From Candidatus Saccharimonadota bacterium (GTDB lineage: Bacteria > Patescibacteriota > Saccharimonadia > Saccharimonadales > Saccharimonadaceae), in assembly GCA_028289015.1 (NCBI GenBank), contig JAQGHC010000012.1, positions 1 through 55,064 of the forward strand: DNA of 55,064 bases, read 5' to 3'. The number at the start of each line of letters is the position of its first letter. Within the stretch, counting starts at the first letter, position 1. The position numbers and the translations under genes were made by a program. The notes under the pieces are model-generated. The model ran no database searches. It worked only from the letters and a program-made list of their open reading frames with translations, and was not told where the DNA came from. This document shows positions 45,108 to 49,408 of this stretch, piece by piece.

Positions 45108-48014
45108 TTACATTTTTTGAAGCGAGATATTCAACTGCGAACCCTCAACCTTGGCGCTCGCACTGTACTGTTCGTATGGGCTATTCGTAAGTGAATCGGC
45201 AAGCACTTCAGCGCTGATTACGTTTTTAAAGTCAGCGATCGCCTGCTGGATCTCTATGTCATCAGTCGACAGGCCGACTTGAATACGATCATCCACATTC
45301 AAACCGGCAGCCTTGCGAGCGCTTTGAATGTGGCGGATCACTTCGCGCATCAAGCCTTCCCTCTTTAACTCCGGCGTAATCATCAGATCGAGACGTAGTG
45401 CTTTTCCCTGTACAACTTTTTTGACATTCAATTCTTCGGTCAAGATATCTTCAAAATTCACAAACTCACCAAGGGTTGGCACAGTCACGCTCGCAAGTGG
45501 CTGGCGAACCTTTTGACGTTCTTTAGCGCGAATACTCAAACCTTCGTTAACGTATTCACGGACCGTCTCCATATCCTGAATGACCAGCTCGTTAATATGC
45601 CCCGTTTTTGGCCAATCTAGCAGGTGAACACTTTCACCACCTGTCAGCTTTTGATACAGCTCTTCGGCAAGGAATGGTGTGAACGGCGCCAGTACCTGGC
45701 TCAACTGAACAAGAGTGTAATGCAATGTCGTATATGCGTTATTCTTATCGGTATCATCGCCAGATTTCCAGAAGCGTCGACGACTACGGCGAACATACCA
45801 GTTACTCGCGTCTTCAATGAATGGCAGAATAGGTTTGACCGCATTTGGAATATCATAGTCATTCATATGTTTTTCTACTTCTTGAGTCAATTGGTGAACC
45901 CGACTAACGATCCACTGATCCAGCGGGTTTTCCAGTTGATCCGTCGGATCGACGCACTTGCCGTCGAATTCCCAACCATCCACATCGGCGTACATCGTAA
46001 AGAAGTCATACATGTTCCAGATCATGGATAGTTTGCGCGCCACATCCCCCACTTCCTTATCCTGCAATGCAAAATCTTCACCGTTAAGTAGTGGGCTTTG
46101 TAGCAATAGGAAGCGCAGGCTGTCGGCTGAATACTCGTCCATCAATACGTTCGGGTCAGTGTAGTTGCCGTAGCTCTTACTCATTTTACGGCCGTCATTT
46201 CCGGCGACGTTACCGGTAACGATCACGTTCTTGAATGAGTTTTCACCGAATAACGCGACGCTCATTGAGTGCATATAATAGAACCACGCACGAACCTGGC
46301 CAATATATTCAACGATAAAATCACCAGGGAAATTCTGTTCGAATGTTAGCTTGTTTTCGAACGGATAATGGAACTGCGCAAACGGCATGCTACCTGCCTC
46401 AAACCAGCTGTCCATGACCTTATCGATGCGCGTATACGTCACGCCGTCAATTATAAATGTAATATCGTCGACCCATGGACGGTGGTAATCTTCTAGCTCA
46501 ACGCCACTTAATTCTTTTAACTCGGCATAACTACCGACAACTTTAACGTGTATTTCGCCGTCTTTATCGACACCTTTCCAGACCGGCATCGCTGTCGCCC
46601 AAAAACGATCACGGGAGATATTCCAGTCCGGTGCCTGTTCGATTGTTTTTGCAAAACGGCCGTTCTTTACGTGTTCTGGGAACCAGTTGATATTACCATT
46701 CTTCTCGAGCATTGTTTCGCGCTGCTCATCAATGTCCATGAACCAGCTGGGATGTGCACGGTACATTAATTTCGTACCACAGCGGTGACAGTGCGGATAA
46801 CTGTGGCGGATGTAATCAATTTTCCAGACGATTCCACGCTCTTTTAGGTCCTTGGCGATTGTTTTATTAATCTCCCAAACATTATGACCCTGCCAGTCAC
46901 TTTCGGTAAATATGCCGTTCTCATCAATCGTATGTACTACAGGGATTTTATTTTTACGAGCTAAGTCAAAATCTTCTTCACCGTATGCAGGCGCCAAGTG
47001 AACAATTCCAGTACCCGATTCAGCAGTCACATAATCTGCAAACCATATTTTGTGTGCATTTTCGCCACGATTCTCAAATAAAGGTACGTAGCTCAAACCA
47101 TTCAAGTCTTTCGCATCAAACAAAATATTTCTTCTACTATAGTCGAGGCTGCTATGCTTTTCGTCTTGAAATATATTTTTTATAAGTTCGTCATCTTTCG
47201 CGACGATCAGTAGCTCGTTATTATGCTCGATGACCTCGTATACGAGGTTTGGACTCACAGCTAGCGCGGTATTAGCTGATAACGTCCAAGGTGTCGTAGT
47301 CCATGCTAGTAAATAAACATCCTCAACTCCTTCGGGGATACCATTTAGCTTCCGTGCTGACTCTTGAGAGAGCTTAAACTTCACATACACACTCGGGTCC
47401 GTCACGTCCTGGTACGCGCCAGCGTCCATCGTCACTTCCGCTTTTGATAAAGGGGTCGCGTCAAGCGTACAGTACATTAGTACTTTTTCACCTTCGTAAA
47501 TCTTGCCCTTTTCATAAAGATTCTTAAACGCCCACCAAACGCTCTCCATGTACTCTTTGTCCATGGTTTTGTAGGCGCCCTTAAAGTCTACCCAGCGACC
47601 AATGCGATCAACCGTATCTTCCCAAAGACTGCTGGTTTGCACCATATTCTCACGGCAGGCGATAATGTACTTTTCAATGCCGTAGTTAATGACCTCTTCG
47701 CGGGAATTTATACCAAGCTTTTTCTCGGTGAAGCGTTCTGCAGGCAGACCGTGGCAATCCCAGCCCCAAACACGCTCGACACGCTTGCCTTGCATCGTCT
47801 GATAGCGAGGCACGACATCTTTAACAATCGAGCTAAGAAGTGTTCCATGATGTGGCACGCCTGAAATAAACGGCGGGCCGTCATAAAATACGTATGAATT
47901 ATCCTTCGGTCGCATTTCAACCGACTTTTCAAATGTCTTGTTTTTCTTCCACTGCGCAATGATATCTTTTTCATATTCCGCTGCGCGGCGTCGAGAATTG
48001 GCTTTAAATTTCAT
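45108..48014 (-). CDS. ileS: Isoleucyl-tRNA synthetase
   Basis: 968 aa class I synthetase. The HIGH region reads PHHGTLLSSIVKDVVPRY with Thr for the last His, then WGWDCHGLPAE and, near residue 600, DGRKMSKSYGN (KMSKS). A CP1 editing domain lies between (about 190-400, TTPWTLSANTALAV). A C-terminal anticodon domain is present, but the zinc finger of bacterial-type IleRS is not, so it resembles the eukaryote-like type (IleRS2), often linked to mupirocin resistance (family knowledge, untested). A T-box precedes it. Confidence 0.95.
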   Translation of the reverse strand: MKFKANSRRRAAEYEKDIIAQWKKNKTFEKSVEMRPKDNSYVFYDGPPFISGVPHHGTLLSSIVKDVVPRYQTMQGKRVERVWGWDCHGLPAERFTEKKLGINSREEVINYGIEKYIIACRENMVQTSSLWEDTVDRIGRWVDFKGAYKTMDKEYMESVWWAFKNLYEKGKIYEGEKVLMYCTLDATPLSKAEVTMDAGAYQDVTDPSVYVKFKLSQESARKLNGIPEGVEDVYLLAWTTTPWTLSANTALAVSPNLVYEVIEHNNELLIVAKDDELIKNIFQDEKHSSLDYSRRNILFDAKDLNGLSYVPLFENRGENAHKIWFADYVTAESGTGIVHLAPAYGEEDFDLARKNKIPVVHTIDENGIFTESDWQGHNVWEINKTIAKDLKERGIVWKIDYIRHSYPHCHRCGTKLMYRAHPSWFMDIDEQRETMLEKNGNINWFPEHVKNGRFAKTIEQAPDWNISRDRFWATAMPVWKGVDKDGEIHVKVVGSYAELKELSGVELEDYHRPWVDDITFIIDGVTYTRIDKVMDSWFEAGSMPFAQFHYPFENKLTFEQNFPGDFIVEYIGQVRAWFYYMHSMSVALFGENSFKNVIVTGNVAGNDGRKMSKSYGNYTDPNVLMDEYSADSLRFLLLQSPLLNGEDFALQDKEVGDVARKLSMIWNMYDFFTMYADVDGWEFDGKCVDPTDQLENPLDQWIVSRVHQLTQEVEKHMNDYDIPNAVKPILPFIEDASNWYVRRSRRRFWKSGDDTDKNNAYTTLHYTLVQLSQVLAPFTPFLAEELYQKLTGGESVHLLDWPKTGHINELVIQDMETVREYVNEGLSIRAKERQKVRQPLASVTVPTLGEFVNFEDILTEELNVKKVVQGKALRLDLMITPELKREGLMREVIRHIQSARKAAGLNVDDRIQVGLSTDDIEIQQAIADFKNVISAEVLADSLTNSPYEQYSASAKVEGSQLNISLQKM

Positions 48015-48039
48015 AGTGTTTTCCTTTCGTTAAAAAACA

Positions 48040-48235
48040 AAAAATCCCTGTTTAGTCACTGGAATCCGCATTGTCGCGGACGGTACCATCCAGTTTCTAA
48101 AAAGAGATTCTTTTTAGCGCTTAGTTATTCGCAGTAACGCCGCGTTCACGTCGGGGTCTAATTACCAATTGGCGTTCTTCCCAAATAACATTCGCGGGTG
48201 ATAGCCGCTCATCTTACAACAAGAGTGTTACGTTT
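48040..48235 (-). promoter_or_regulatory. T-box riboswitch in the ileS leader, very short Stem I
   Basis: Read on the minus strand: Stem I GCGG/CCGC (48208-48205 with 48197-48194) with loop CTATCAC holding the Ile codon ATC (48202-48200); Stem II AACGCC/GGCGTT (48176-48171 with 48141-48136); Stem III CTAAAAAGA-ATC-TCTTTTTAG (48117-48097); then ACTGGA, TGGTACC (T-box, 48088-48082), helix TCCGC/GCGGA and TTCCAGT. Uncharged tRNA-Ile should bind TGGTACC and favour ileS expression. A competing ATTCC/GGGAT hairpin followed by a T-run suggests termination; translational control is also possible. Confidence 0.85.
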
Positions 48236-48247
48236 ACAATTTTACCT

Positions 48248-49408
48248 TTAATTATCATCGTTAGCAACCATATAACGCCAACGCCCTTCCTGCTGCGCTC
48301 GTTTCCGCGAGCCAACAAAACTTTGCGCCACATCAACTATCACATCAGCACTCGTATCGCTTTTATAAACCGCCCATGCATGAGCGCCATTTGCCTCTAG
48401 GTCATGATTACGCTCAACACCAACCCTACCGGCTAAATAGCCTCTCGAAATCACTTCTTCGATCAAATGTGCGGCGAGGAGTGCTTGATGCCGACAAACG
48501 CCGACACCCTGCTCAACATATTCACTTAAATCAATTAACCCTTTATTGCCATAATGCGGGCGACTCATACGCTCTGTTTGCCCTAGATCATAGCGCATTA
48601 TATTTGCAACGCGTAACGTAATTTTATTGAGGATCATTTGAGTACTTAACGTCTCTGCATCTTCGCCACTTGGCAGCGTCCCCATGAAAGCGTCGACAGT
48701 CTGCTTAAGTAATTGGCTCTTATCGTCAACGACGATAAACTCTGATTCGCGAGTACCGTACACGCCGCCTCTGACAGTAGCTGACCTTCGACCAATAATC
48801 GGGTGGTTGCGATAATATCCGTAAGGGGCTTCAGAGTCTCGATCACCGAAGCTTCTTCCATGCTCGACATCCTCGACGACACGAGAAGTGAATTCATGGT
48901 GAATATCACGTTGACTAGTCCGTTTTTCCGAGAGGACGTAACCCGTAAGAAGGGTGCCATTAACCGATCCTTCGTCTTGAATAAATAACTTGTCCTCACC
49001 CTCGCTATAAGTCACGGAGAAGTGATCACGAGAAATTTTTTTGTCATACTGAAAGCGGCTTACGTAATGATGGCGGCCAATCACAACTGGCTCGTCTGGA
49101 TGTATGCCCTTATATCCTGTCGTCGAGTTATGTTCGTATGTATCAGTCGTAATGAGAAAAGGTGTCTGATATTGGCGAGTACTTCGCGTATCGAGCAGTA
49201 AAAATGACATACCACCGGCGCGCACACCAGCGATCAGCCTTCCTTGTACGCCCATTTCTTTTTGAACTTCCGGCACATCAAGCAGACTCTGCGTCGTATC
49301 AATTTCAATTTCCTTCTTTGGTTCCAGCTTTAGGCGCTCTACATAGGCAAATCCCTCGGCATCCGGGAAAATTTCTTGCTTATCCGTAGAAACTAATTCA
49401 TTAGGCAT
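48248..49408 (-). CDS. FHA domain plus transglutaminase-like domain protein
   Basis: 386 aa. An FHA domain is central (about 105-160: PVVIGRHHYVSR, KISRDHFSV with Ser and His, GSVNGTLLTG), so it should bind phosphothreonine peptides. A C-terminal transglutaminase/cysteine-protease-like core (about 290-370) has Cys in GVGVCRHQALLAAH, His in NGAHAWAVY and Asp in VIVDVAQ, the C-H-D triad. It is cytoplasmic by absence of signal or TM. I know of no standard function for this fusion. TTGCAC-N17-TATAAT ends 8 nt before the ATG. Confidence 0.75.
   Translation of the reverse strand: MPNELVSTDKQEIFPDAEGFAYVERLKLEPKKEIEIDTTQSLLDVPEVQKEMGVQGRLIAGVRAGGMSFLLLDTRSTRQYQTPFLITTDTYEHNSTTGYKGIHPDEPVVIGRHHYVSRFQYDKKISRDHFSVTYSEGEDKLFIQDEGSVNGTLLTGYVLSEKRTSQRDIHHEFTSRVVEDVEHGRSFGDRDSEAPYGYYRNHPIIGRRSATVRGGVYGTRESEFIVVDDKSQLLKQTVDAFMGTLPSGEDAETLSTQMILNKITLRVANIMRYDLGQTERMSRPHYGNKGLIDLSEYVEQGVGVCRHQALLAAHLIEEVISRGYLAGRVGVERNHDLEANGAHAWAVYKSDTSADVIVDVAQSFVGSRKRAQQEGRWRYMVANDDN

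Follow-up and report, generated by a model that had tools for sequence, protein, structure and literature searches.

In the 55,064-nt window of the Candidatus Saccharimonadota bacterium genome analysed here (the whole stretch of DNA, to which all coordinates refer unless a contig is named), ileS lies on the minus strand and encodes isoleucyl-tRNA synthetase (810 bits against TIGR00392, cut-off 621, E=2e-243). Its leader runs from 48229 down to 48032 and forms a complete T-box with an ultrashort Stem I, in which all parts can be seen (Table 1). The coordinates of the parts from the AAGCG string onwards were read by hand off the sequence. The predicted promoter of the leader has 9 of 12 consensus matches in a consensus scan and overlaps the 3' end of the upstream gene (48248-49408, minus strand), which is without an NCBIfam match. 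A −10-like hexamer is found directly 5' of Stem I in 81% of 74 relatives compared with 32% in shuffles, and therefore a long Stem I has no space.

Table 1. Features of the ileS leader and its surroundings, in window coordinates.
Feature	Positions	Strand	Details
Predicted promoter	48239-48267	−	−35 TTGCTA (48262-48267), 17-nt spacer, −10 TAAAAT (48239-48244)
Stem I domain	48187-48229	−	Base helix AACA/UGUU (48226-48229 / 48187-48190), read from sequence
Ultrashort Stem I hairpin	48194-48208	−	GCGG-CUAUCAC-CCGC, 4 bp and 7-nt loop; 48-leader alignment
Specifier codon AUC (Ile)	48200-48202	−	In apical loop, A next; conservation and tRNA-Ile(GAU) in relatives
Stem II with S-turn	48153-48189	−	Halves GAAGAAC (48174-48180) and AAUUAGA (48157-48163)
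Putative Stem IIA/B pseudoknot region	48130-48153	−	ACG/CGU and CGCG/UGCG
AAGCG purine string (RRRxG motif)	48118-48122	−	5' of Stem III; motif as in PMC7583486
Stem III	48097-48117	−	CUAAAAAGAAUCUCUUUUUAG, 9 bp, predicted −5.6 kcal/mol
Antiterminator	48058-48094	−	A1 (48089-48094 / 48058-48063), T-box bulge UGGUACC (48082-48088), A2 (48064-48081)
Terminator 5' strand	48097-48109	−	AAUCUCUUUUUAG, equal to Stem III loop and 3' strand; pairs with 48043-48055 in MFE
Terminator 3' strand	48043-48055	−	CUAAACAGGGAUU; pairs with 48097-48109
U-tract	48032-48044	−	UUUUUUGUUUUUU; from sequence
Shine-Dalgarno (SD)	48020-48027	−	AAAGGAAA, 3' of U-tract; from sequence
ileS, isoleucyl-tRNA synthetase	45108-48014	−	Regulated gene; TIGR00392

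About a hundred ileS start regions of the order were gathered, and 76 leaders were extracted from them by searching for a 4-bp Stem I with the loop NNATCNN and a paired A1 helix. Alignment A1 holds 48 of these leaders. RNAalifold recovered the three expected helices from it unaided. Across the 48 leaders, two-sided changes occur in 13 of 15 pairs, and 98.5% of helix cells are paired, compared with 28-45% in slid controls; the covariation score is 0.68 compared with 0.27 in shuffles, and none of 500 shuffles scored as high. All four Stem I pairs show two-sided changes with 100% of cells paired, and helices A1 (100%) and A2 (95%) also carry compensatory changes. With Stem I, A1 and A2 all covarying, the element stands far above chance.

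Other parts of the leader are conserved as well. A K-turn-like GA/GA step probably flanks the mini-hairpin in the Stem I domain, as judged from the sequence. In alignment A1, the UAGA of the Stem II S-turn is invariant with near-invariant flanks, and the AAG of the AAGCG string is invariant or almost so. The Stem IIA/B region gave a pseudoknot-like score of 7.3 compared with 4.0 in shuffles over 75 leaders, a weak signal that was partly judged by eye. The AAGCG string, Stem III and AAA of the ileS leader together make up the discriminator pattern RRRxG-Stem III-AA. Helix A1 of the antiterminator is ACUGGA/UCCAGU, and A2 has a terminal wobble between G48081 and U48064, G-U being the commonest pair type at this position (23 of 48 leaders).

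The leader matches the Rfam T-box model RF00230 over its full length with 36.6 bits (E=1.7e-6). Because the gathering score of this model is 93 bits, the default Rfam scan of the leader reported nothing. Only two of the five control genomes with a match exceeded the cut-off in a control search, so the cut-off should be regarded as an annotation threshold and not as defining biology. The same search of the own genome and 40 relatives yielded 12 matches in 11 genomes, none of them above the cut-off. We confirm the ileS leader as a real T-box with an ultrashort Stem I, and we infer that it binds tRNA and senses aminoacylation.

Since ATC was demanded in the Stem I search, its presence in 76 of 76 leaders of the order is no test of specificity, and the test comes from leaders outside the order, where genes were named by NCBIfam and Stem-I-like hairpins were listed without a codon requirement. 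A blind choice of the lowest-energy Stem I placed the cognate codon in 40 of 58 loops, compared with 24.5 after permutation. This choice was dropped in favour of a cross-table of all listed hairpins because it often picked wrong ones. In the cross-table, Ile leaders carry AUC[AC] in 27 of 27 cases and never GUC, Val leaders carry GUC[AC] in 18 of 23 cases and never AUC, and Asp leaders carry GACA in four of six. Two single leaders read by eye are a tyrS leader with UAC (L282) and an aspS/asnS-type leader with AAC (L272). The specifier tracks the downstream synthetase across the phylum. The base directly 3' of the AUC specifier is A in 70 of 76 ileS leaders. Leaders of the same kind also stand 5' of valS, aspS, thrS, tyrS and lysS in Patescibacteria. 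The valS leaders across Patescibacteria (L221, L229, L235, L268-L271, L273-L275 and others) have GUC in the Stem I loop, which is often longer (AUUAAUGUCA).

The T-box bulge was compared with the tRNA ends. In ten relatives, tRNA-Ile has the GAU anticodon and A73, giving an ACCA end that fits the UGGU bulge; no tRNA-Ile was found in the own genome, which is incomplete. The own genome has a second T-box before thrS (L003:2424-2640, C19, minus strand). Its Stem I loop contains ACC, its bulge is UGGA and its terminator hairpin is strong. All three tRNA-Thr of this genome have U73 (end UCCA), which fits UGGA, while most other tRNAs end in ACCA. A close relative of this thrS T-box is present in G016 (L011). 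Four of six Asp leaders have UGGC, as expected for a tRNA-Asp with G73, and the own genome has such a tRNA-Asp. Among the 76 ileS leaders, the bulge base is U in 65, A in seven and C in four, so that 11 of 76 depart from U. The UGGA bulge occurs in L076, L110, L115 and L118, and also in L010, whose genome yielded no tRNA-Ile. An altered tRNA-Ile was rejected as the explanation, since tRNA-Ile has A73 (ACCA end) in the genomes of L076, L110, L115 and L118; these four leaders have a discriminator-position mismatch with their own tRNA-Ile.

We built a covariance model, R1, and used it to map the element. Of 295 genomes of the order, 210 carry it, and the count is 161 of 223 (72%) when only the good genomes are considered. 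Across the phylum Patescibacteria, 143 of 380 sampled genomes have it. An exact Stem I plus T-box pattern searched in 84,980 named species genomes matched 28 records, whose titles are mostly Saccharibacteria or Saccharimonadia, with one Patescibacteria and the few others uncultured or unclassified bacteria. The earlier note, made from this DNA, had proposed an Ile-specific T-box in a probable CPR bacterium, with a 4-bp Stem I bearing AUC in its loop among its listed parts. Every one of these parts is present on the minus strand. The proposal also agrees with the RF00230 match, although this lies under the gathering score, with the conservation of Stem I, specifier and TGGNACC in related leaders, with the two-sided changes in the 4-bp, 7-nt-loop Stem I, with the specifier following the synthetase outside the order, and with the titles of the 28 matched records. 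Its description of the switch as rare does not hold, given the 210 genomes of the order that carry the element.

The 3' part of the leader carries the expression platform. The predicted terminator helix forms 12 of 13 pairs with one mismatch at −12.1 kcal/mol, and none of 100 shuffles was as low. A simple terminator scan found none in this leader because it allowed only short loops. Downstream of A1, 75 of 76 leaders have a T-run, and in 66 of 75 the SD and start codon lie 3' of it. We called an enclosing terminator, a pairing between the segment preceding the T-run and the region directly 5' of A1, when it beat 98% of shuffles and reached −8 kcal/mol or lower; 48 of 75 leaders have one, this leader included. 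The largest register group comprises 24 distinct leaders, in which 95% of terminator cells are paired, 12 of 15 pairs show two-sided changes and 34 double-change cells were counted compared with 6.7 in shuffles, a test that leans to pairing because the groups were chosen by best register. All 48 leaders of this type keep A1 in the predicted OFF fold, enclosed by at least 8 pairs. The OFF fold is a median of 13.1 kcal/mol more stable than the ON fold in these leaders, where ON was computed with the terminator strand omitted; the two predicted folds of this leader have −24.3 and −31.3 kcal/mol. In 43 of the 48 leaders of the enclosing type, a Stem III hairpin shares the terminator strand.

According to PMC7583486, a transcriptional T-box builds the 5' strand of its terminator from the 3' strands of A1 and A2. 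The predicted terminator of this leader instead draws on Stem III for its 5' strand, and therefore the platform differs from the classical one. The earlier note had read the hairpin as competing with the antiterminator, which does not fit the predicted fold: the strongest U-tract hairpin is formed with the 3' strand of Stem III and holds the antiterminator, still intact, inside it. Its reading of transcription attenuation agrees with an SD past the U-tract in those 66 leaders and with a conserved terminator helix.

We consider it likely that the T-box controls ileS by transcription attenuation and that the switch is between Stem III and the terminator rather than between antiterminator and terminator. 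With uncharged tRNA, the ACCA end would pair with the UGGU bulge, which would hold the tRNA together with Stem I and the S-turn while Stem III and its flanking purines dock on the antiterminator. A docked Stem III would be locked, and RNA polymerase would read past the U-tract. With charged or absent tRNA, the segment directly 5' of the U-tract may capture the 3' strand of Stem III, giving a long hairpin with the antiterminator hairpin inside, and transcription would stop. This model builds on the parts of the ileS leader, their covariation, the specifier and bulge matches and the two helices that share one strand. Its docking and release step would be analogous to known discriminator structures (PMC7583486). 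We also lean, with less assurance, towards a lineage-wide T-box class of Patescibacteria that combines an ultrashort Stem I with transcription termination, and in which, within the Saccharibacteria order, charging would be read through one strand that pairs in Stem III when the switch is ON and in the enclosing terminator when it is OFF.

The best of the other readings is a classical platform, in which a local hairpin takes up the A1 3' strand (GGAUUCC/GGGAUUU) so that, as in Bacillus, either the antiterminator or the terminator can form. A local hairpin of 5-7 bp is indeed possible in this leader, a weaker one (AUUCC/GGGAU) that would compete with A1, and hairpins overlapping A1/A2 are plain in L004, L005 and L007. 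The Stem III-based helix, however, is the longer one, with 14-15 enclosing pairs, and forms the predicted optimum here and in L008, L049 and L090, which makes the classical platform unlikely for this leader. Local hairpins, many of them classical, occur within the order in L004, L005, L007, L010, L057, L082 and L110, and they dominate outside it (31 of 52). A Stem-III-free enclosing terminator (AAGUCCC...GGGGCUU) was considered for L057, L082, L110 and L137, which were counted as classical because a stronger classical local hairpin is present there. Judging from these predicted hairpins, both platforms occur in the lineage.

The aptamer resembles the ileS T-boxes with an ultrashort Stem I in Actinobacteria (N. 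farcinica, M. tuberculosis), described by Sherwood et al. (2015) and in PDB 6UFM/6UFG, as cited in PMC7583486. These have the specifier in the apical loop, a Stem I K-turn and a Stem II S-turn, and they are translational (PMC7583486, PMC10651847). A translational T-box here, whose OFF fold hides the ribosome-binding site, could appeal to the match in Stem I, S-turn and loop with the Nocardia farcinica and Mycobacterium tuberculosis elements. No partner sequestering the SD was seen in this leader, the SD lies past the U-tract here as in most relatives, and T-runs with a complementary strand 5' of them are conserved, so this reading is very improbable. It has been argued on kinetic grounds that transcriptional T-boxes generally require a long Stem I (PMC7583486), which counts against a transcriptional element with an ultrashort one. 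From the predicted folds, transcription termination is the most likely output. A degenerate, non-functional remnant or chance hairpins would suit the Rfam score under the gathering threshold but are hardly conceivable with compensatory changes throughout, presence in 72% of the good genomes of the order and agreement between specifier and gene.

Common to this leader and the actinobacterial ultrashort class are the apical-loop specifier followed by A, the apparent K-turn-like base of Stem I, the Stem II S-turn sequence, a candidate IIA/B region, Stem III, the UGGN bulge and the ileS target. The two differ in that the actinobacterial elements are translational, whereas in this leader the SD is free and lies 3' of a predicted terminator with its U-tract, and in that the Patescibacteria leaders also precede the other synthetase genes named above. 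With the class I T-boxes of Bacillota (RF00230), the leader has in common the specifier, RRRxG-Stem III-AA, the UGGN bulge, the A2 G-U wobble and an intrinsic terminator (predicted here), but it is without the long Stem I or the elbow-binding module; most leaders of the order also take the terminator 5' strand from Stem III, unlike the A1/A2 strands of class I (PMC7583486). TBDB has used its class II model on Actinobacteria and on truncated class I hits (PMC7778990); a truncated Stem I is common to both sets, whereas the Patescibacteria leaders fall under the Rfam cut-off. We place the aptamer with the ultrashort actinobacterial ileS T-boxes. The open-access literature searched held no report of T-boxes in Patescibacteria, Saccharibacteria or the Candidate Phyla Radiation, and earlier reports elsewhere are possible.

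Stem III has been recognised as a part of the charging sensor only recently. The platform proposed here would make Stem III itself the switching helix, and the leader would put to the test the idea that speed demands a long Stem I in transcriptional T-boxes. The element points to control of synthetase genes by tRNA sensing in bacteria whose genomes are very small, in a phylum where T-boxes of this kind are unannotated because their scores fall under the Rfam cut-off.

Several minor observations concern the distribution and targets of the element. The ileS T-box is absent from most genomes sampled in the species-rich genus g2 of family f1 (e.g. G097, L116) and kept in some, a pattern that looks like repeated loss. 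In L008 and L047, a GNAT-like gene and an unnamed gene, respectively, lie between the T-box and ileS, and in L007 a NUDIX-like gene follows the T-box while ileS was not located; these genes may therefore share the T-box control. G066 has two ileS genes, with a T-box leader before each (L137, L139).
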